The notes under the pieces were generated by a model. That model did not search any database and had not been told where the DNA came from. It worked only from the letters and a program-made list of their open reading frames with translations. This document shows, in pieces, positions 98 to 59,175 of a DNA stretch of 64,000 nt (position 1 is the first letter of the stretch; each line of letters starts with the position of its first letter). Both the position numbers and the translations under genes were made by a program. Source of the stretch: Providencia sneebia DSM 19967 (GTDB lineage Bacteria > Pseudomonadota > Gammaproteobacteria > Enterobacterales > Enterobacteriaceae); NCBI RefSeq assembly GCF_000314895.2, contig NZ_CM001773.1, positions 2,184,461-2,248,460 on the forward strand, given 5' to 3'.

Positions 98-1302
98 AGA
101 ATCGCACCTTAGGTAGTGTTTTTATTGTTGCAGGTACAACGATTGGTGCTGGTATGCTTGCAATGCCGATTGCAGCTGCTGGTAATGGCTTTTGGGTAAG
201 TTTAGTTATGTTGTTCGCGTTATGGATATTAATGTGTTACACCGCGTTATTATTAGTTGAAGTGTATCAACATGAATCTTCTGAAACCGGTATAGGAAGT
301 GTTGCGCAGCGATATCTCGGTTCAAGCGGTAAATTTATTACAGGTTTTAGTATGATGTTCTTAATGTATGCATTGACAGCGGCTTATGTCAGTGGTGCAG
401 GGGAAATTATTACCTCTAATCTAAAAAGTAGTTTTGCTATTGAACTTGCTGATTGGATGGGAATTGTCATATTTACTATTATTGGTGGTGGTGTTGTCTG
501 TTTTGGTACATCTTCTGTCGATTTTATTAACCGTATTTTATTTATTGCAAAGATTATTTTTTTAGTAATTATTTTGGCACTTATGATGCCACATGTTGAA
601 CAGCAGAATTTATTATCCGCGCCGACTGAGAAAGTATTAATACTTTCTGCAATTCCTGTATTTTTTACATCGTTTGGTTTTCATGGAAGTGTTCCCAGTA
701 TTGTAAAATATATGGGTGGTGATGTGAAAAAATTGCGTATCATCTTTATTATTGGTAGTGCTATTCCGTTAATTGCGTACATTCTATGGCAAATAGCGAC
801 ATTGGGAAGTATTAGTACAACAACGTTTGTCGGAATTCTTGCAGAAAATTCTGGGCTAAATGGTTTGTTAGATTCCATAAGAAATGTAGTTATGTCGGGA
901 AGAACAGAGTTTATTGCTCAAATGTTTATGAGTTTAGCACTCGCAACTTCATTTCTTGGTGTGGCGCTTGGATTGTTTGATTTCTTGGCGGATTTATTTA
1001 AACGACAAGATAATGCAGCAGGACGCATTCAAACTGGATTACTCACTTTTTTACCTCCTTTAGTATTTGCATTATTTTATCCTAGAGGATTTGTCATGGC
1101 ATTAGGGTTTGCTGCAATTGCATTATCAATTTTAGCGTTATTATTACCAAGTGCGATGGCATTTAAATCAAGGTTACATAATGAACGTAAATATCAAGTT
1201 AAAGGCGGTAATTCAGCATTACTTATCGTATTTTTATGTGGAATTGTAGTCATCGGCATCCAATTCGCAATCGCGTTTAGTATCTTACCAAATATCGGGT
1301 AA
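94..1302 (+). CDS. tyrP: Tyrosine-specific transport protein TyrP
   Basis: Inner-membrane proton/tyrosine symporter of the hydroxy/aromatic amino acid permease (HAAAP) family. The 402 residues match the usual TyrP length (about 403). The opening [20 protein letters not shown], the segment [16 protein letters not shown] and [14 protein letters not shown] are TyrP hallmarks that separate it from Mtr and TnaB. About 11 hydrophobic segments span the whole chain. The ATG has an AGGA about eight bases upstream and overlaps the end of a possible upstream frame. In E. coli tyrP is controlled by TyrR; no clear TyrR box can be claimed in the 93 bases available here. A strong hairpin follows the gene, so it probably ends its transcript. 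Confidence 0.95.
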
Positions 1303-51390: not shown

Positions 51391-51654
51391 ATGAAAATGT
51401 TAACGCTACAAGAAATGACTGAAGCGCAAAGAATGAGAGTAAAAACGCGATTAGGTCAAGAAAGGAAAAAATTAGGGCGCGAATTAACCAATGCAGAGCA
51501 TAGCCGAACTAAAAATGAAATTGTCGCTGAAATATCTAAAGAAGTTGAAGCGGCAGCTAAAAAAGTACGGGCACAAAAGAAAAAAGATAAGCTGAAACCA
51601 AGTGAATCTACATATAGTTGGTCTTCTAATAATCACAGTAGAGGTTTACGTTAA
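51391..51654 (+). CDS. yjbD: DUF3811 protein YjbD
   Basis: 87 residues, similar to E. coli YjbD (90). Highly charged helical protein: QEMTEAQRMRVKTRLGQERKKLGRELTNAEHSRTKNE followed by KEVEAAAKKVRAQKKKDKLKP and the conserved end YSWSSNNHSRGLR. The helix and the basic tail suggest nucleic-acid or ribosome association, but no function is established. Its terminator-like hairpin lies at 51691. Confidence 0.88.
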   Translation: MKMLTLQEMTEAQRMRVKTRLGQERKKLGRELTNAEHSRTKNEIVAEISKEVEAAAKKVRAQKKKDKLKPSESTYSWSSNNHSRGLR

Positions 51655-51690
51655 TAATAATTAATTATTAACCAAATTATTTCATATTGG

Positions 51691-51718
51691 CAGAACATTT
51701 TTTAGGTTCTGTCTTAAT
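51691..51718 (+). terminator. Terminator after yjbD
   Basis: Perfect 6-bp arms CAGAAC/GTTCTG with a nine-base loop followed by TCTTAATTCTG; modest strength. Confidence 0.5.
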
Positions 51719-51905
51719 TCTGTTTTATTTTAAACTCGCCGAGTTATTTTTTAAACTTATAGTTTAATTCCCCATATTTATTACATTGATTTATCACATC
51801 CTATAATTTCTCTATTTTTTCATTATCGGGTAATAAAAGATTGTGTCGGAAGATTAAAGCTCAGATAATAAAGATATCACCTTCTTTATATTACTTTAAT
51901 GAAAT

Positions 51906-53022
51906 ATGCCTACGACAATAAATGGAATTACCGATAATCTTCGCCAAGCGATTAAACTCTCAACACAGGGCATGGTCGGTCGTGAACAACTTGCTGAATT
52001 AGTCGTATTGGCTGCAATTGCGCATGAGCATTTATTGGTTATTGGCCCTCCCGGTACTGCAAAAAGCGCAGTTGTTCGCCGTGTTTCACAAACTTTAGGC
52101 GGACGTTATTTTGAGTATCTATTAGGGCGTTTTACTGAACCCTCCGAATTATTTGGTGCTGTTGATTTAAAAAATTAAAGAAGGCCGTGTAGAAACAGAT
52201 ATTACAGGAATGCTACCGGAAGCAGATATTGTTTTTCTTGATGAAGTCTTTCTAGGTTCTACCGCTATTTTAAATACATTGTTAGGTATTTTAAATGAGC
52301 GGCGTTTTAAACGTGGGCATACCGATTTAATTACACCGCTTAAGGTGTGTATTGGTGCAGCAAATAGCTTGCCGGAAGATAATAATTTAGCCGCTTTCTC
52401 TGATCGTTTTCTTCTACACCTCTTCATAGATTCAACGCCTGATCACCAATTAGAAGAAATGCTACAAGGGGGATGGGAAGCCAGTTTAGCTAATTTACAA
52501 CCGCAATTAGATATTAATGAATTGGACGAATTACACCTCGCAGTTAAGCAGGTGGATTTGACCGAAGTTCGCCCAATTTTAGCGGATGCTATTCGTGTGC
52601 TAAGAAATGAAGGTATTTTACTTTCAGATAGGCGCGTAGTACGTGCTCAGAGGCTAATTGCAGCAGCAGCTGTTTTAAATGGTCGCAACATTGCTACAGC
52701 ACAAGATTTGTGGCCACTATTATATGTGATCCCAACGCAAGAGATGCAATTACAAGGACGTAATATTCTGAGTGAGAAATTTTCAATCTCAATGAATTCT
52801 CGGTTATTTAGTGCAGTTGAAGAAGCAACGCTTCAGCCACAAGCTCGAATAAACCGCTTAATTGAGCTTGCTACTGAAGTTTTAAATGCCCAAACACCGT
52901 CAAAAGCGGATACTGAAATGGCATTAAGAGAAATTGATGCTAATTTTTCAACGGAAATGTTAGATGAAGAACTCGCCACTCTACGAACTCGTTTAGCGGT
53001 ACAATTTAGTCATTTATTATGA
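51906..53022 (+). pseudogene. MoxR-type AAA+ ATPase of a bpX ternary system, frameshifted
   Basis: Two frames form one MoxR ATPase of about 370 residues. The first (to 52178) holds Walker A GPPGTAKSAV and YFEYLLGRFTEPSELFGAVDL. The second holds GMLPEADIVFLDEVFLGSTAILNTLLGILNERRF (Walker B and sensor region), the sensor 2 region and a helical lid. The reading switches at an A6 tract (52170-52175): losing one A, or adding two bases, gives a continuous DLK..KEGRVETDITGML, as expected for MoxR. The full gene would end in ATGA overlap with the next. MoxR ATPases act as chaperones with vWA partners, which matches the gene two places downstream. The gene is inactive as read, unless the sequence is wrong here. 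Confidence 0.85.
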
Positions 53023-53447
53023 GTTTATTATTATCAATAGAATGGCAAATAAATGAGCAACCTCTCACTCCCGAAGCGGTTGTAGCGATAGGTGATTCAG
53101 CAAGGCAGTTAACAAAACGTTTGGCTGATCTTGATGCAGATAATCAACAAAAATTAAAGGTTGTTACAGGAAAAAATTGGCTGGTGGTGATTGGTCACTC
53201 TAATTTATTACCTTGGGTTGATGGAGGGATGTATATTGCACCTTCAGCGCAGACTGTCGGTTTATGGCTTCCAACTCACCAGCAACCTATATTGCCTCAT
53301 AGTATTATTAATCAGGCTTTGAAGAAGACATTTAAACAGCATTCATTGCTTATTTTACCATCACCGATGATGGTGTTTCCTCTTGATAATCCTTGGCGAC
53401 TCAGCTCTCCTTTATTGGGGAAACTTTTAGAAAAAAGCTTTATATAA
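53019..53447 (+). CDS. Small bpX-system partner protein (bpX5-like)
   Basis: 142 residues; ATG overlaps the stop of the MoxR gene by four bases. Mixed alpha/beta protein with WLVVIGHSNLLPWVDGGMYIAPSAQTVGLWLPTHQQP and LLILPSPMMVFPLDNPWRLSSPLL. This matches my recollection of the small family named bpX5 that always sits between MoxR and the vWA protein in these systems; it would need a profile search to confirm. No membrane segment or signal peptide. The likely role is an adaptor or substrate-recognition subunit for the ATPase. Confidence 0.6.
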   Translation: MSLLLSIEWQINEQPLTPEAVVAIGDSARQLTKRLADLDADNQQKLKVVTGKNWLVVIGHSNLLPWVDGGMYIAPSAQTVGLWLPTHQQPILPHSIINQALKKTFKQHSLLILPSPMMVFPLDNPWRLSSPLLGKLLEKSFI

Positions 53448-53488
53448 GCTTGTATGGAATTAGGATATAAGGATCTTAGTGACTCATC

Positions 53489-55375
53489 ATGCCGTTACCT
53501 ATATCACAAGCAGCGCTTCTACCTAAAGCACTTCAGCCATGGCAAACATGGTTAAGTTGGTTATCTCCCGAGCTGGTACCCGCCTTTTCTGAAATTCTAC
53601 AGAGACTTAATCGGGTTGTAGGGCCTGTTCATGGGAAGCATACAGGTGGATTACCTGAACAAGATGGATTAGGGGTTATTGAACGTAAAGGAGATTATCA
53701 ACATCTTTTACTCAGTGAATGGTTAATTGCAGATGAATTGCCAGATGAATTTATCCGTCGAGCTATAAATTCAGAACATTTATTTTTAGCGGCAAACCAT
53801 AAAATTGAACAATCGTTAAATCAAATTACAATATTATTTGATTGTGGACCTTTTCAATTAGGTGCATGCAGATTAGTGCATATCGCGTTACTAATTTTAT
53901 TTGCGCAAAGAGCGGAGCAGGCCGGGTGTGATTTTCAGTGGGGAACATTACAATCCCCAAAAATATTATTACCGCTTGAAAATATTAACCATCTTCAAGC
54001 ATTACTGAAACAACGAACCTATTCTCCTGTTTTACCAGAACATATAGCGCAATGGCATGAGTTTATTCAATTAGATGATAATATCCAAAACGGTGAATTA
54101 TGGTTAGTTACAGGAGCTAACCAAGAAACGCTTTTAGCCTCAATTCCTGCGACTCATCGTATTGAATTAGTTGCAGATGATATAAGACAAGAAAAAATAG
54201 ATGCGTATATTCATGGTAATGGCCATCATCGCTATGTACAACTGCCAATGCCGCCTGAAAAATTAAGTATTCCACTGATTAAAGGGAACTTACGACTAAC
54301 AACGATACAAAATAGTTATAACGATCAATTTATAGTGTCATTGATGATACCACCTATTATTTCATTTCATGGCAGTTGCATTGGCGTTGCATTGCTTGGA
54401 AGGTCAGGATTTGCGGTGATAAAAATCCCTCCAATTTTAAATAAAAATAATCCAACAAATCGACCTCAAAAAAAGAATTTAGATTATCAAATGTATCCTG
54501 CGGCCACGTCGATATTAGCGTTACAGTGTCACGGTAAGAGGATGGGTGCCTTATTAGCATACAAAGAGGGTATTGGATTTTGGCAGTTACCAACACAATT
54601 TTATATTAACAAGCCGCCACAAAGTGATTTTTTTGCAAGTTCTAGCCGCGCCGGAATACTTTCAAGTGCATTTTTACACGGCTATGAAAAAAAAGGATTA
54701 TTTGTACTAGACATCGCCAAGCGGTTAGTTTTTTTCTCCTCAAAACATCACCAAAAAGGTTATCAAGCATTACGAGAACGTGTGCTCGGTATAGAGAAAA
54801 TAGCCGATAATGCCTTGGCTTATATCTATATTGAAGGTGATTCACTGTATCAAATTATTGTGAATAGTGAGCTTTCTCAACAGCGCCATTTATTATCTAT
54901 CCCGAGTAAAACAATTTCAGATAAACAAAAGGTACTCTTTGCATACCGACATAAATATTCTGATGGTTACAGCACTGTTTCTTGTGCTGTCTCTACACAA
55001 TTACGGGAGCACGAGTGTTGGACGCTCTACAATATGAGTTTAGGTCCGGATGCGATTGAAAATGTCAGCTTACCGCATGGTTGGCATGCTATTGGTTTAT
55101 ATTACCAAAGAACAGAAAATAATATTGAGGACTTTACTCAGCTTAATTTACTGATATTAAATCAGAATAAGGTAAATATTGCCTATTATTCTAAGGGTAA
55201 AATTGAAAAAATTTATCATACGAATTCATTAATTGCGCGATATACCTTTAGTCCTAAGACTGGATTGTTAGCATTAATAACTGAAAATAAACAAGTGGTC
55301 GTCTTTGATGTTTACAATAATCAATTACGACTAAGCTTACATTCGATAGCACAACAAGGGGCAGACAGTGAATAA
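53489..55375 (+). CDS. vWA-like/beta-propeller protein of the MoxR ternary system
   Basis: 628 residues. A helical N-terminus is followed at about 112-165 by a von Willebrand A-like core, ITILFDCGPFQLGACRLVHIALLILFAQRAEQAGCDFQWG. It has the strand-Asp-helix start of the metal (MIDAS) site, but Asp118-Cys-Gly replaces the usual Asp-x-Ser-x-Ser, so metal binding may be lost. From about 290 to the end there are repeated four-strand blades with patterns such as SFHGSCIGVALLGRSGFAVIKI, YKEGIGFWQL, FSPKTGLLALITENKQVVVFDV, typical of a beta-propeller. ATG at 53489 has only a distant AAGGA. It ends eight bases inside the next gene. vWA proteins are the normal partners of MoxR. Confidence 0.7.
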   Translation: MPLPISQAALLPKALQPWQTWLSWLSPELVPAFSEILQRLNRVVGPVHGKHTGGLPEQDGLGVIERKGDYQHLLLSEWLIADELPDEFIRRAINSEHLFLAANHKIEQSLNQITILFDCGPFQLGACRLVHIALLILFAQRAEQAGCDFQWGTLQSPKILLPLENINHLQALLKQRTYSPVLPEHIAQWHEFIQLDDNIQNGELWLVTGANQETLLASIPATHRIELVADDIRQEKIDAYIHGNGHHRYVQLPMPPEKLSIPLIKGNLRLTTIQNSYNDQFIVSLMIPPIISFHGSCIGVALLGRSGFAVIKIPPILNKNNPTNRPQKKNLDYQMYPAATSILALQCHGKRMGALLAYKEGIGFWQLPTQFYINKPPQSDFFASSSRAGILSSAFLHGYEKKGLFVLDIAKRLVFFSSKHHQKGYQALRERVLGIEKIADNALAYIYIEGDSLYQIIVNSELSQQRHLLSIPSKTISDKQKVLFAYRHKYSDGYSTVSCAVSTQLREHECWTLYNMSLGPDAIENVSLPHGWHAIGLYYQRTENNIEDFTQLNLLILNQNKVNIAYYSKGKIEKIYHTNSLIARYTFSPKTGLLALITENKQVVVFDVYNNQLRLSLHSIAQQGADSE

Positions 55376-58047
55376 AGAGTATATCCGTCATCCTTTGTTA
55401 TCGGGCTATCGCGTTATCTCTGGGATATGGCTTCCATGTGACTGGTTTGACGAATCTATGCGAGTCAATTTATTAATTAAATATTGGCAAACAGGTTGTC
55501 AAGCTTATCGTTTTGATGAAGGCGATTTATTGTGTTTTGCTGAGTCAAAAGCAATAGATTGCGCATTATTGGATGGTTGGCCGTTAACTTTATACGGCAA
55601 TACTTATAGCTCTGCGCCTTTGGATCCTGATGAAATTAAACGTTTACCGTTAGCAGATGCTTGGGTTATCCGAAATGGTCTCGTAATAGCACTCTCTTTT
55701 TCGCATGCTCAACCTATTTCACTCTCTGATTATATTGATTTAGATGAGTACTCTTTTCAACAATCTGATGATTATTCTGAGTTATTTATTATTGAAGTTA
55801 ATCCTGATAATTTGATTGAAAAAGATGTACGAAAAGTTATTGGCGAAAATATCCCGAAAGCGAGTCAGGCACAACAACAGTTTTTACAAACATTGAAGGC
55901 GCATGAAAACAAAAGCCGTTATGAAACAAATATTGCCGAAAGTAGTAAAACTGGAAAAACATCATTTATGCACCGCATTTTGTCCCGTTTGATAAGTTCA
56001 AAAACACGAGATGCTATTAACGATAATAATAATTCACAAGCTATTGAGCAGCTTCCTAAACTACAACGTTGGCTGGCAAAATTGGCGATGGAAAGTGGCT
56101 TAGCTTCTCTAATTGGTAAACAGCATGCCAATTATATTAATAAAATGATGAAAATGTTTGAAGAAAATAACATTGAACAAGCATTACGTCATGGCATTCC
56201 ATTGAGTAAAAACCAAGATTTTAGTGATCCGCCACCTTCACCTTATTTAGGTTTTTTACAGCGTAGAAATAGCCTTGAAATATTATCTAATAATCAAGTG
56301 AGTAAGGGAATTTATCTTGGTGAAGAGGCGCAGCAATATTTAAAACAGCTTTATAGAAAACAATTTATACAATTAGATAAAGCTGGCCGGAACGATGAAG
56401 CCTTATTTATTCTTGCTGAATTATTGCAAGAATATGATGAAGCACTTGATTACTTAGAGCGTTTTGAGCGTTATCAACAAGCAGCTGAACTTGCTCATTT
56501 ATGGTCTATGTCGCCAGAACGTATCACGCGTTTACATTGTTTAAGTGGTGATGTTGATGCTGCAATAAATTATGCACGGCTACACCACACGTTTTCATCT
56601 GTTATTTTACAGCTACAAGAAAAACATCCGGATATTGCGACAAGAATGCGTAAAGAGTGGGCGGAATCACTAGCTGATAGGAGGTGATTGGCTACAAGCT
56701 ATAGACGTTATTTGGCCAATAAATAATGATTCGGCGAGTGAACTGGCGAAAGATTGGTTAATGAAATCTTATCGTGCTGGTGGTCAAATGACGATTGGGG
56801 CAATAGTTAAATGGGCGATATTATTACCTGATACATTTTCTGAATGTGAAAATATTATTAACCCCATACTGAGCCAACCTACTTTAGTGCATGAACGTGT
56901 AATATTAGCGAGAGAAATCCTTTCTGCAAAACAACAAAATGCAATAATAAATAGAATAACTAATCAATTAATTAGGCCGATTATTGCTGATCAGTTTAGA
57001 GGAAATGAAACCTTAGAAACACAAGAGATAAAAGGGCTTATTAGCAGGAGTACAGATAAACTGCTAAAAAATGATCTTCCTACAAGTGCATTTCCCAAAA
57101 TACCCGTAAATTCATTTGATAAGCAAAAAAACACGATGAATATCTCTTTGCCTAATCGTGGAGAATATGTTATTTGTGACGTTGTCACAGTTAGCGACCA
57201 GCGCTATCTTATTGCATTAGGTGAAGTGGGTGTTGCATTAGTCGAATCGACTGGGAAAATAGTGTGGCATAAGCCCATACCGACATACCGGATTGTGATT
57301 TCAGATAATCAGCAAATTACATTATTACTCGCGCCAAGAAGTCAATGTTATCAAATTCATCAGTTAACAATCGCAACACAAACAATATTAGAGCTAGGAA
57401 TGCTCAAATTAACGGCTTTTGCTGACTCATTCGATGGTATGTTTTGGACATTAAGTATTAATAATGTAGTCCAAGTTGTGGATGTTAGAAATAATTTTAA
57501 AGTTGTTTGGCATGTTGGTGCATTAACTGGTGAGGTATTAAAAATCCAACGTACGGCAACACATGAATATTGGCTAATTGGTGGTGAAGATAGGCAATTT
57601 TGGTGTTATACATTACCAGAAAGGCGTTTAGTTAGTTGTACTGATGCACCTTATCATATTAATAACATTGAAATTTATATAAATGAAACTTTCGATTCTT
57701 ATCACACGATTCAAGATAATAAAGTAACAATATCGCATTTTAATTCTAGCTATCAGCAAATACTACAGCTTCCTAAAGCACTATCAATTGAAGAAAAACG
57801 TTCGTTTAAATTGAGCTCCCAAGCTGGTATTTTAACTCAATGGCAACAATCATCGACATCAACCACATTATTCCATTTTTATACAAAACGATTTGATAGG
57901 TGCCTTGAGTTAAATTGGCCAATTGATGCAAAACCCACAGCCAGAACTGAGATGACAAACTGGCTTTTATTTGACCAAGAAGGGCGCTTGGTACATATTG
58001 ATTGGTCAAAAGGAAAAGTAAATAAATTCAGCTTGCAATTAAAATAA
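55368..58047 (+). pseudogene. bpX6-type helical-repeat/beta-propeller protein, frameshifted
   Basis: Two frames together encode about 890 residues. The start is GTG 55368, with AAGGGG eight bases before it. Residues 1-140 are a distinct domain (HPLLSGYRVISGIWLPCDWFDESMR, DAWVIRNGLVIALS); about 150-250 is a charged linker; about 250-500 is helical-repeat, tetratricopeptide-like (AGRNDEALFILAELLQEYDEALDYLERFERYQQAAELAHLW). The second frame continues the repeats (DWLQAIDVIWPINNDSASELAKDWL) and then a beta-propeller. The first frame stops at 56687 in GATAGGAGGTGATTGG; skipping one base gives ADRGDWLQAI, continuing the helical pattern seamlessly. So this is one gene with a single-base insertion. 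The domain order fits the large effector or scaffold subunit of bpX systems. Confidence 0.72.
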
Positions 58048-58086
58048 GTCAAATATCAGGCTAAATAAATAGGGCGGATGACTATC

Positions 58087-59175
58087 CTAATGGTTGTCCA
58101 ACCAAGTGATAACCTCATGATAGCGCCCACGAAATAAAATTCGTTCTTGTTTTTTACTTAATTGGTAATTATACATAGGATCATAGTACTCTTTAAGTAA
58201 TGGTGTTAACCAGGAGAAATGGACTTCTGTTGATGCACCCTTTTTTTGTTCATTTAAAGCAAGATCAAGAAGTTGTATTAATTCAGTAGCTCGTTGAGAG
58301 CCCAGTCGTTTACGAATAGCTGATAAACCATGATGTAAATATTCACTATAGGCTAGCCAACCTTGTTCTTCGCCATAAGCTGCTAAAAAGTCATTTGTCA
58401 TACGATCAAAATATTCTTCTTTTAAGCGTTCTAAACGATAGTCAAATGGATCATCAACGATCACTAATGGGGCTTGCGCCATTTGTAAGCGTAAATTTTC
58501 TGGAATACTATTTGCGCCAATTGCTTTACCTTCATCTTCTAATATCCATCGTGTATGTTGAGGTGATTTTTTCAACATTTTTATTGCCAAATGGTTTTCA
58601 AAAGTTGCTTGAGAAAGTTGATTTTCTAATGTTCGACCAAATGAAGAACCACGATGACGGGCAATGCCTTCTAAATCAATTCCATCAGAACGCCCACGTA
58701 CCATGATTGTCTTGCCATTGCCTGTACAGCCGCCAATTAAGATAATTTCTCGCTGGACTAATTGATTTATAGACTCGATTGTAGTCTTACGTAATGCTTT
58801 ATAACCACCAATAATTAATGGATATTCAATACCGATATCTTTTAACCATTCTTGTACAATATGTGAGCGCATTCCACCTCGCGCACAGCAGAGATAACCA
58901 TTTGGAAATAGTCGGCAAGCGGTTTGCCAATCATTTAGCCTTTTAGTCCGAGTATCTCCACTTACCAATTTATGGCCTAAAGAAACTGCCTGTTGCGAAC
59001 CTTGTTGTTTATAGCATGTTCCTACAGCAGCACGTTCTTCATTTGACATTAATGGTAAATTAATAGCAGAAGGTAGAGATCCTTGAGCAAACTCAATAGG
59101 TGCTCTGACATCAATTATGGGTATATCTTGGGTAAGAATCTGGTGAAGATTTTGGGTTGATGGCAATAATTCCAT
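58087..59175 (-). CDS. selU: tRNA 2-selenouridine synthase SelU (MnmH)
   Basis: 362 residues (E. coli 364). It replaces sulfur of 2-thiouridine at tRNA wobble position 34 by selenium via a geranylated intermediate. N-terminal rhodanese domain (about 1-125) has the active Cys97 in [12 protein letters not shown], next to a second Cys96. A P-loop GCTGNGKT at 149-156 and a C-terminal helical part follow. Selenophosphate synthase (SelD) must be encoded elsewhere. It stands alone, converging on the bpX operon. Confidence 0.95.

Follow-up and report, generated by a model that had tools for sequence, protein, structure and literature searches.

The beta-propeller MoxR-vWA ternary systems, subsystem 4 of the computational survey of Kaur et al. 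(2020, PMC7159879), are predicted in the passages on this group to be conflict systems that lack a conventional effector, and the P-loop given for them has the form GXXXTAKS. A similar gene set appears in Pseudomonas syringae clade 2b-a, where the region of genomic plasticity RGP_32 contains, in this order, an ATPase called ravA, bpX5, a protein annotated 6ND4, and bpX6; these genes were classed as clade-specific and no role was proposed for them in the passage concerned (PMC9677677). Here, we describe a four-gene operon of the same kind, MoxR-bpX5-p4-bpX6, located in a stretch of 64 kb from Providencia sneebia DSM 19967 (hereafter the window, meaning the whole stretch of 64,000 nucleotides). 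We interpret it as a decayed copy of an accessory operon whose intact form most likely defends against phages or other invaders, a reading to which we assign a probability of about 0.55. New here are this broken representative of a kind already predicted and the evidence from its genomic context in Proteus.

Judged from its profile matches, the locus is a bpX5/bpX6-type member of the ternary systems. Six open reading frames (ORFs) on the plus strand form one operon that fills the gap between yjbD and selU (Table 1), and the bpMoxR, bpX5 and bpX6 domains were detected far above the cut-off of 27 bits used for each profile. The limits and placement of the operon agreed with the original prediction, as did its assignment to a MoxR-vWA-bpX system, which is the one described in PMC7159879, and the presence of a MoxR ATPase with the proposed Walker A and Walker B motifs was confirmed by the bpMoxR profile and the translation. 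The locus had also been described as four consecutive overlapping genes: it is indeed an operon of four genes, but with MoxR and bpX6 each split in two, and only two of its three junctions overlap (4 bp for MoxR/bpX5 and 8 bp for p4/bpX6, with gene starts chosen by a script), bpX5 and p4 being separated by 41 bp. The GXXXTAKS form of the P-loop was found as GPPGTAKS in the N-terminal MoxR piece of the window and in 12 of the 12 whole MoxR sequences aligned (of 29 whole copies), and the propeller of the second large protein and the solenoid and propeller of the third are likewise common to subsystem 4. In contrast, the window copy has two broken genes, which bears on its activity and not on its kinship, its bpX6 piece lacks the membrane-spanning segment described for the group (where it is not a defining feature), the p4 propeller, with about 340 residues, is larger than the "about four blades" mentioned in the paper, and no vWA domain is detectable in p4. 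The bpMoxR profile alone is not specific, as it matched in all 24 genomes of the genus, where most of the matching frames had about 510 residues and were taken as RavA. bpX5 is a specific marker, absent from all 14 control genomes, and the bpX6 domain was detected in the 22 homologues scanned.

On the evidence of its reading frames, the operon of the window is inactivated, as assembled, by frame breaks in MoxR and bpX6. When compared to the intact Proteus protein, MoxR runs in one frame for residues 1–89 (84% identity) and in another for residues 90–372 (77%), and bpX6 is divided in the same manner between residues 1–426 (55%) and 433–882 (45%); bpX5 and p4 are unbroken. Because the two halves of MoxR match one continuous Proteus protein, the frame that encodes Walker A is not the one that encodes Walker B. 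The original prediction did not mention these breaks and implied an intact MoxR and bpX6, which was not upheld. Thirty copies of the operon were compared (the window, one from another genus of the family, G264, eight from Proteus, nineteen from the genus of G595, probably Pseudomonas, and G561; loci L088, L091 and L093 are the same as L010, L008 and L009, respectively, and were each counted once). Eight of them are broken: five of ten in the family (the window, G264 and three Proteus operons), three of nineteen in the G595 genus, and none of one elsewhere. At the level of single genes, 10 of 119 testable copies (L093 ends inside bpX6) are broken, as read from assemblies and not from reads: one MoxR, one bpX5, four p4 and four bpX6. 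These counts roughly follow gene length, so that no gene is singled out, and a gene-specific inactivation was rejected.

The order MoxR-bpX5-p4-bpX6 is kept in all 30 copies, the window included, and no fifth conserved gene was common to the flanking ORFs compared. The operon is accessory: bpX5 was present in 1 of 24 genomes of its own genus, 3 of 392 of the family and 3 of 398 of the phylum. Three further samples, each centred on genomes in which bpX5 was already known, gave 8 of 20 for Proteus, 1 of 4 for the genus of G264 and 19 of 298 for that of G595. It is thus far from the universally conserved locus that the original prediction had considered as a contrary outcome, and the comparison of the yjbD-selU interval proposed there gave a result consistent with an accessory locus. 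The operon-free state was found in two of the other 23 genomes of this genus, where yjbD and selU face each other across gaps of 103 and 114 bp. In 17 they are otherwise arranged; in the remaining four, yjbD was not found within the 1500 bases examined. In midpoint-rooted trees of the C-terminal part of MoxR and of p4, in the latter of which some rows have long branches and an unlike composition, the window grouped with Proteus (supports 100/99 and 100/100, respectively) and then with G264 (99/99 and 100/100). Mean pairwise dN/dS in Proteus was 0.06 for MoxR (8 copies), 0.18 for bpX5 (8 copies), 0.15 for p4 (7 unbroken copies) and 0.16 for bpX6 (5 unbroken copies), and the operon is under purifying selection in this genus.

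Fresh evidence for a defence role comes from Proteus. An LCAT-like gene, whole in 8 of the 20 Proteus genomes and found as a remnant in G359, stands upstream of the operon in six of the eight Proteus operons, and the slot downstream of this gene has several different occupants (Table 1). Both Septu and PD-T4-3 have been shown by experiment to act against phages; PDC-S15, to which the protein with an FRG domain belongs, is a candidate family only. Of the eight Proteus operons, three are broken, and these three coincide with those that lie beside a defence or candidate-defence gene (one-sided p = 0.018, noticed post hoc), and the value for all 30 copies is p = 0.014 if no defence neighbour exists at the other copies, for which neighbour matches are known for the best 25 of 74 families. 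No remnant of the operon was detected by tblastn in the slots of G805 and G296. This context favours a defence role without proving it. Neither Proteus nor Providencia is mentioned in the main text of PMC7159879, and in the open literature searched we recognised no experimental test of the bpX5/bpX6 subgroup and found no paper related to the Proteus slot. The slot, with Septu present with or without the operon and PD-T4-3 adjoining it, is thus a concrete reason to test a defence role, and it offers intact operons, about 6 kb long, alongside copies broken in nature.

Alternatively, the Proteus slot may be a general insertion hotspot whose occupants are uninformative about the function of the operon, a possibility that we regard as somewhat doubtful on balance. 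Lipoprotein-like genes without a PADLOC match occupy the slot in two genomes (G802 and G296), and LysR regulators and transporters flank other copies (among the best 25 of 85 families). However, three different defence or candidate-defence genes lie beside three of the eight Proteus operons and Septu stands alone in the slot of one further genome, when only 1 of the 46 ORFs of the window had a PADLOC match at E 1e-10, a rough yardstick as it is taken from a different genome. It is also conceivable, but unlikely, that the operon encodes a housekeeping chaperone resembling RavA-ViaA, in which a MoxR ring and the propellers would assist in the assembly or control of a complex of the envelope or of respiration; the operon would then be accessory because this complex is. 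The two share a MoxR-family AAA+ core, RavA chains being the nearest solved structures to the MoxR profile (E 2.3e-48); moreover, MoxR has the lowest dN/dS of the four genes, the hydrophobic segments of bpX6 in the G595 genus would fit an envelope role, and profile searches found no effector domain in the operon proteins. The match to RavA is, however, limited to positions 8–272 of 373, and in NCBIfam the two MoxR pieces matched RavA only distantly (49 and 84 bits for a cut-off of 681). The partners in the operon are bpX5 and propeller proteins with no detected vWA domain, whereas a separate RavA-like protein of the same genome lies elsewhere, beside a vWA protein (contig positions 470 and 468 kb, respectively; their naming as RavA and ViaA was deduced from size and position). 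The patchy presence of the operon and a Proteus slot common to Septu, PD-T4-3 and the FRG candidate also speak against such a role.

The decay of the window copy has its own alternatives. Both breaks could be assembly errors in an operon that is intact in the cell, since homology resumes immediately in the other frame for both genes and unbroken copies occur in other genomes. This appears rather improbable: the ORF lists of the 64-kb window, read by eye, contained no second clear split gene, so that breaks are not spread over the assembly, and 7 of the 29 other copies are likewise broken, which suggests that decay is common in this operon family, although some of those breaks may be assembly errors too. 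Programmed frameshifts allowing a conditional production of the proteins might explain why two genes of the operon are each broken once between halves that are otherwise preserved, but this is hardly credible because MoxR occupies a single frame in all 29 other copies.

Several results weigh against a decayed defence operon as the explanation of the locus. A PADLOC search with the operon's own proteins gave no convincing match, only weak ATPase matches of the N-terminal MoxR piece (best E 2.7e-4), and, as stated above, an effector domain was not found. The argument from the slot concerns few genomes and was noticed post hoc. Among the matches listed for the flanks of the non-Proteus copies, none was recognised as a defence gene; as these were the best 25 of 74 families, such a neighbour may still be present. 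The vWA domain implied by the name of the systems was not detected in p4 by sequence comparison: none of 22 members matched a Pfam vWA family, hhalign of the p4 domain with 28 vWA domains gave a probability of 0.2%, no better than 12 column shuffles and with a shallow profile, and a profile search of the PDB returned no significant chain (best E 0.85). The GC content of the island (0.35–0.40) is like that of its surroundings (0.34–0.39) and the copies of the family cluster together in the trees, so that a recent transfer is unsupported; there was also no direct repeat of at least 16 bases in positions 51600–58200 and no tRNA in the window, and thus no sign of a recent island. A search of 50,697 phage records found no p4 relative, one of 20,395 E. 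coli records yielded no DNA match, and viral contigs gave no confirmed relative; carriage by phages, plasmids or E. coli was rejected, the sole match in 72,556 plasmid records being that of Embleya.

For the intact form of the defence operon, we propose that MoxR would form an AAA+ ring, as expected from its family, and that p4 and the bpX6 protein, both propeller proteins, would pair with each other and with bpX5 in a resting complex. Infection or another insult would trigger ATP hydrolysis by MoxR and the remodelling of this complex, and the bpX6 protein would deliver the output, either from a membrane anchor, as in one clade, or apparently as a soluble protein, as in the enterobacterial one; the purpose would most likely be defence against phages or other invaders. 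The safest part of this mechanism is the action of a MoxR ring on propeller proteins, for which the MoxR-vWA pairs of PMC7159879 serve as the analogy. In its passages on the ternary systems, that paper also suggests a pairing of the two propellers and a site of action close to the membrane for the third protein. Since membrane helices are missing from the enterobacterial copies, their complex is more probably soluble. Tentatively, and at a little below even odds, the bpX5/bpX6 operon may be a genuine anti-phage system that is exchanged with Septu, PD-T4-3 and an FRG system at one Proteus slot and decays on the arrival of another system, with a MoxR-remodelled complex of two propellers that exists in membrane-anchored and soluble forms and a p4 domain that is perhaps not a vWA.

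Table 1. Features of the operon in the window, occupants of the Proteus slot, and loci with broken genes or hydrophobic bpX6 segments. Positions without a locus are those of the window.
Location	Strand	Feature	Evidence
51391–51654		yjbD	
51906–52178	+	MoxR AAA+ ATPase, N-terminal piece; Walker A GPPGTAKSA; ends at stop	bpMoxR PF20030, 114 bits, profile positions 2–80; translation
52171–53022	+	MoxR, C-terminal piece, other frame; Walker B VFLDEVF; first start codon 52210	bpMoxR, 134.5 bits, positions 94–203; AAA_lid_8; 77% identity to Proteus MoxR from residue 90
53019–53447	+	bpX5 protein, 142 aa, intact	PF19921, 174.1 bits, cut-off 27
53489–55375	+	p4, 628 aa, intact: N-terminal helices, alpha/beta domain about 104–235 (putative degenerate vWA), beta-propeller about 280–620	
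55368–56687	+	bpX6, N-terminal piece: bpX6 domain, linker, first part of helical solenoid; ends at stop	PF19922, 171.8 bits; 55% identity to Proteus bpX6 residues 1–426
about 56674–58047	+	bpX6, C-terminal piece, other frame: remaining solenoid and beta-propeller	45% identity to Proteus bpX6 residues 433–882; fold of intact Proteus homologue
58087–59175	−	selU	
G797, G799, G806		Downstream of LCAT-like gene: operon directly	
G802		Downstream of LCAT-like gene: lipoprotein-like gene, then operon	
G800 (L089:10266–12172)		Downstream of LCAT-like gene: Septu PtuA-PtuB, then operon with broken bpX6	
G803		Downstream of LCAT-like gene: operon with truncated bpX6 joined by FRG protein	PADLOC candidate family PDC-S15
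G805 (L154:12715–14621)		Downstream of LCAT-like gene: same Septu pair, no operon	
G296		Downstream of LCAT-like gene: lipoprotein-like gene, no operon	
G359		PD-T4-3 beside LCAT remnant, operon with broken p4	
G792		Intact operon, no LCAT-like gene	
Window; L011; L089; L091; L093; L095; L109; L111		Broken genes, respectively: MoxR and bpX6; p4; bpX6; bpX6; p4; p4 and bpX6; p4; bpX5	
L014, L094, L096–L108, L110, L111; bpX6 residues about 190–285		Hydrophobic linker segments, often paired	

The scan for neighbours of the operon took in 93 of 111 flanking ORFs, in most cases the closest two on either side with a length of 130 aa or more; the others were removed by eye, mainly as near-duplicates. 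None of the ORFs of L101 and L111 and some of those of L090, L092 and L098 were covered. The PADLOC matches of these flanks were the best 25 of 74 families at E 1e-10, among which no defence gene was recognised beside the five intact Proteus operons. PD-T4-3 lay outside these 25 families and was found by querying that ORF singly, and further defence neighbours may be hidden among the remaining families. Ten more ORFs were queried singly; one of them matched DpdF, and the other nine gave nothing in PADLOC at E 1e-20. Matches to DpdF, RtcR and CARF_ADA were discounted as generic, probably reflecting a topoisomerase, a sigma-54 activator and an adenosine deaminase, respectively (a pairing deduced from Pfam). 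MzaA and SoFic also appeared in the scan, not tied to any locus, and a search for a Fic motif found none. The PD-T4-3 homologue, which has a GIY-YIG domain (L093:4076–4861, Proteus terrae), lies upstream of the operon as if it had replaced most of the LCAT-like gene, and the FRG-domain protein (L091:8514–9938, Proteus sp. FME41) overlaps the end of the truncated bpX6.

A model of the window's p4 protein, built with 22 sequences (mean pLDDT 78.6), comprises N-terminal helices, an alpha/beta domain and a propeller. The matches listed in the structure searches were all of the propeller type and bear on the C-terminal part. The predicted fold thus supports a beta-propeller in the C-terminal part of p4, as originally proposed. 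The Asp118-Cys-Gly motif noted earlier in this protein was also borne out, D118 and G120 being invariant in all 22 aligned homologues. The MIDAS motif of vWA domains is DxSxS; its serines are missing from the p4 domain, and no second aspartate was found after strand 4 in the p4 homologues, except in an unaligned insert of L107. The predicted order of strands and helices in residues 112–229 is compatible with a vWA domain, and this is the one observation that fits the vWA label of the original prediction, which the sequence searches did not support. Some vWA domains of MoxR-vWA systems are described in PMC7159879 as lacking one or both aspartates. The alpha/beta domain of p4 may not be a vWA at all.

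In the model of the intact bpX6 protein of Proteus (mean pLDDT 73.9), the bpX6 domain is followed by a poorly modelled linker, a helical solenoid (residues 312–562) and a propeller (about 575–878 or 583–878), so that the propeller is supported by the predicted fold and the helical-repeat and propeller layout first proposed for the fourth protein was recovered on this homologue. A strongly hydrophobic segment (Kyte-Doolittle peak of at least 2.0), and often two, was present in the linker of 17 of 18 intact bpX6 proteins of the G595 genus. By the same hydropathy analysis, a membrane-spanning segment was absent from the seven intact bpX6 proteins outside that genus, including all six from the window's family, and from the N-terminal bpX6 piece of the window. 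From the sequences, bpX6 apparently occurs in two architectural forms, one with membrane helices in the G595 genus and a soluble one in the enterobacterial clade, and the existence of both lends itself to comparing the ways in which the output is delivered.

RavA-like and vWA proteins were also located in related genomes. The window's genome has one VWA_2 match in all, beside its RavA-like gene. In at least 17 of the 23 other genomes of the genus, a vWA protein (frames of 385–412 aa) is encoded no further than about 20 kb from selU, and a MoxR-like ATPase of about 372 aa lies near it (L124–L128, L130–L137 and L139–L141), and in G004 a vWA protein lies at about 41 kb from selU. In G019, of the same genus, the RavA-like match is split into two frames (C4:407923–408538).

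A promoter and terminator scan of the locus was uninformative (33 promoter-like sites versus 25.4 in shuffled sequences). Finally, the operon of Embleya (Actinomycetota), located on a linear replicon of 5.7 Mb (L142:5270–11709), has the same gene order with a weak bpX5 match, and it lies outside the phyla named as main holders of these systems in PMC7159879.

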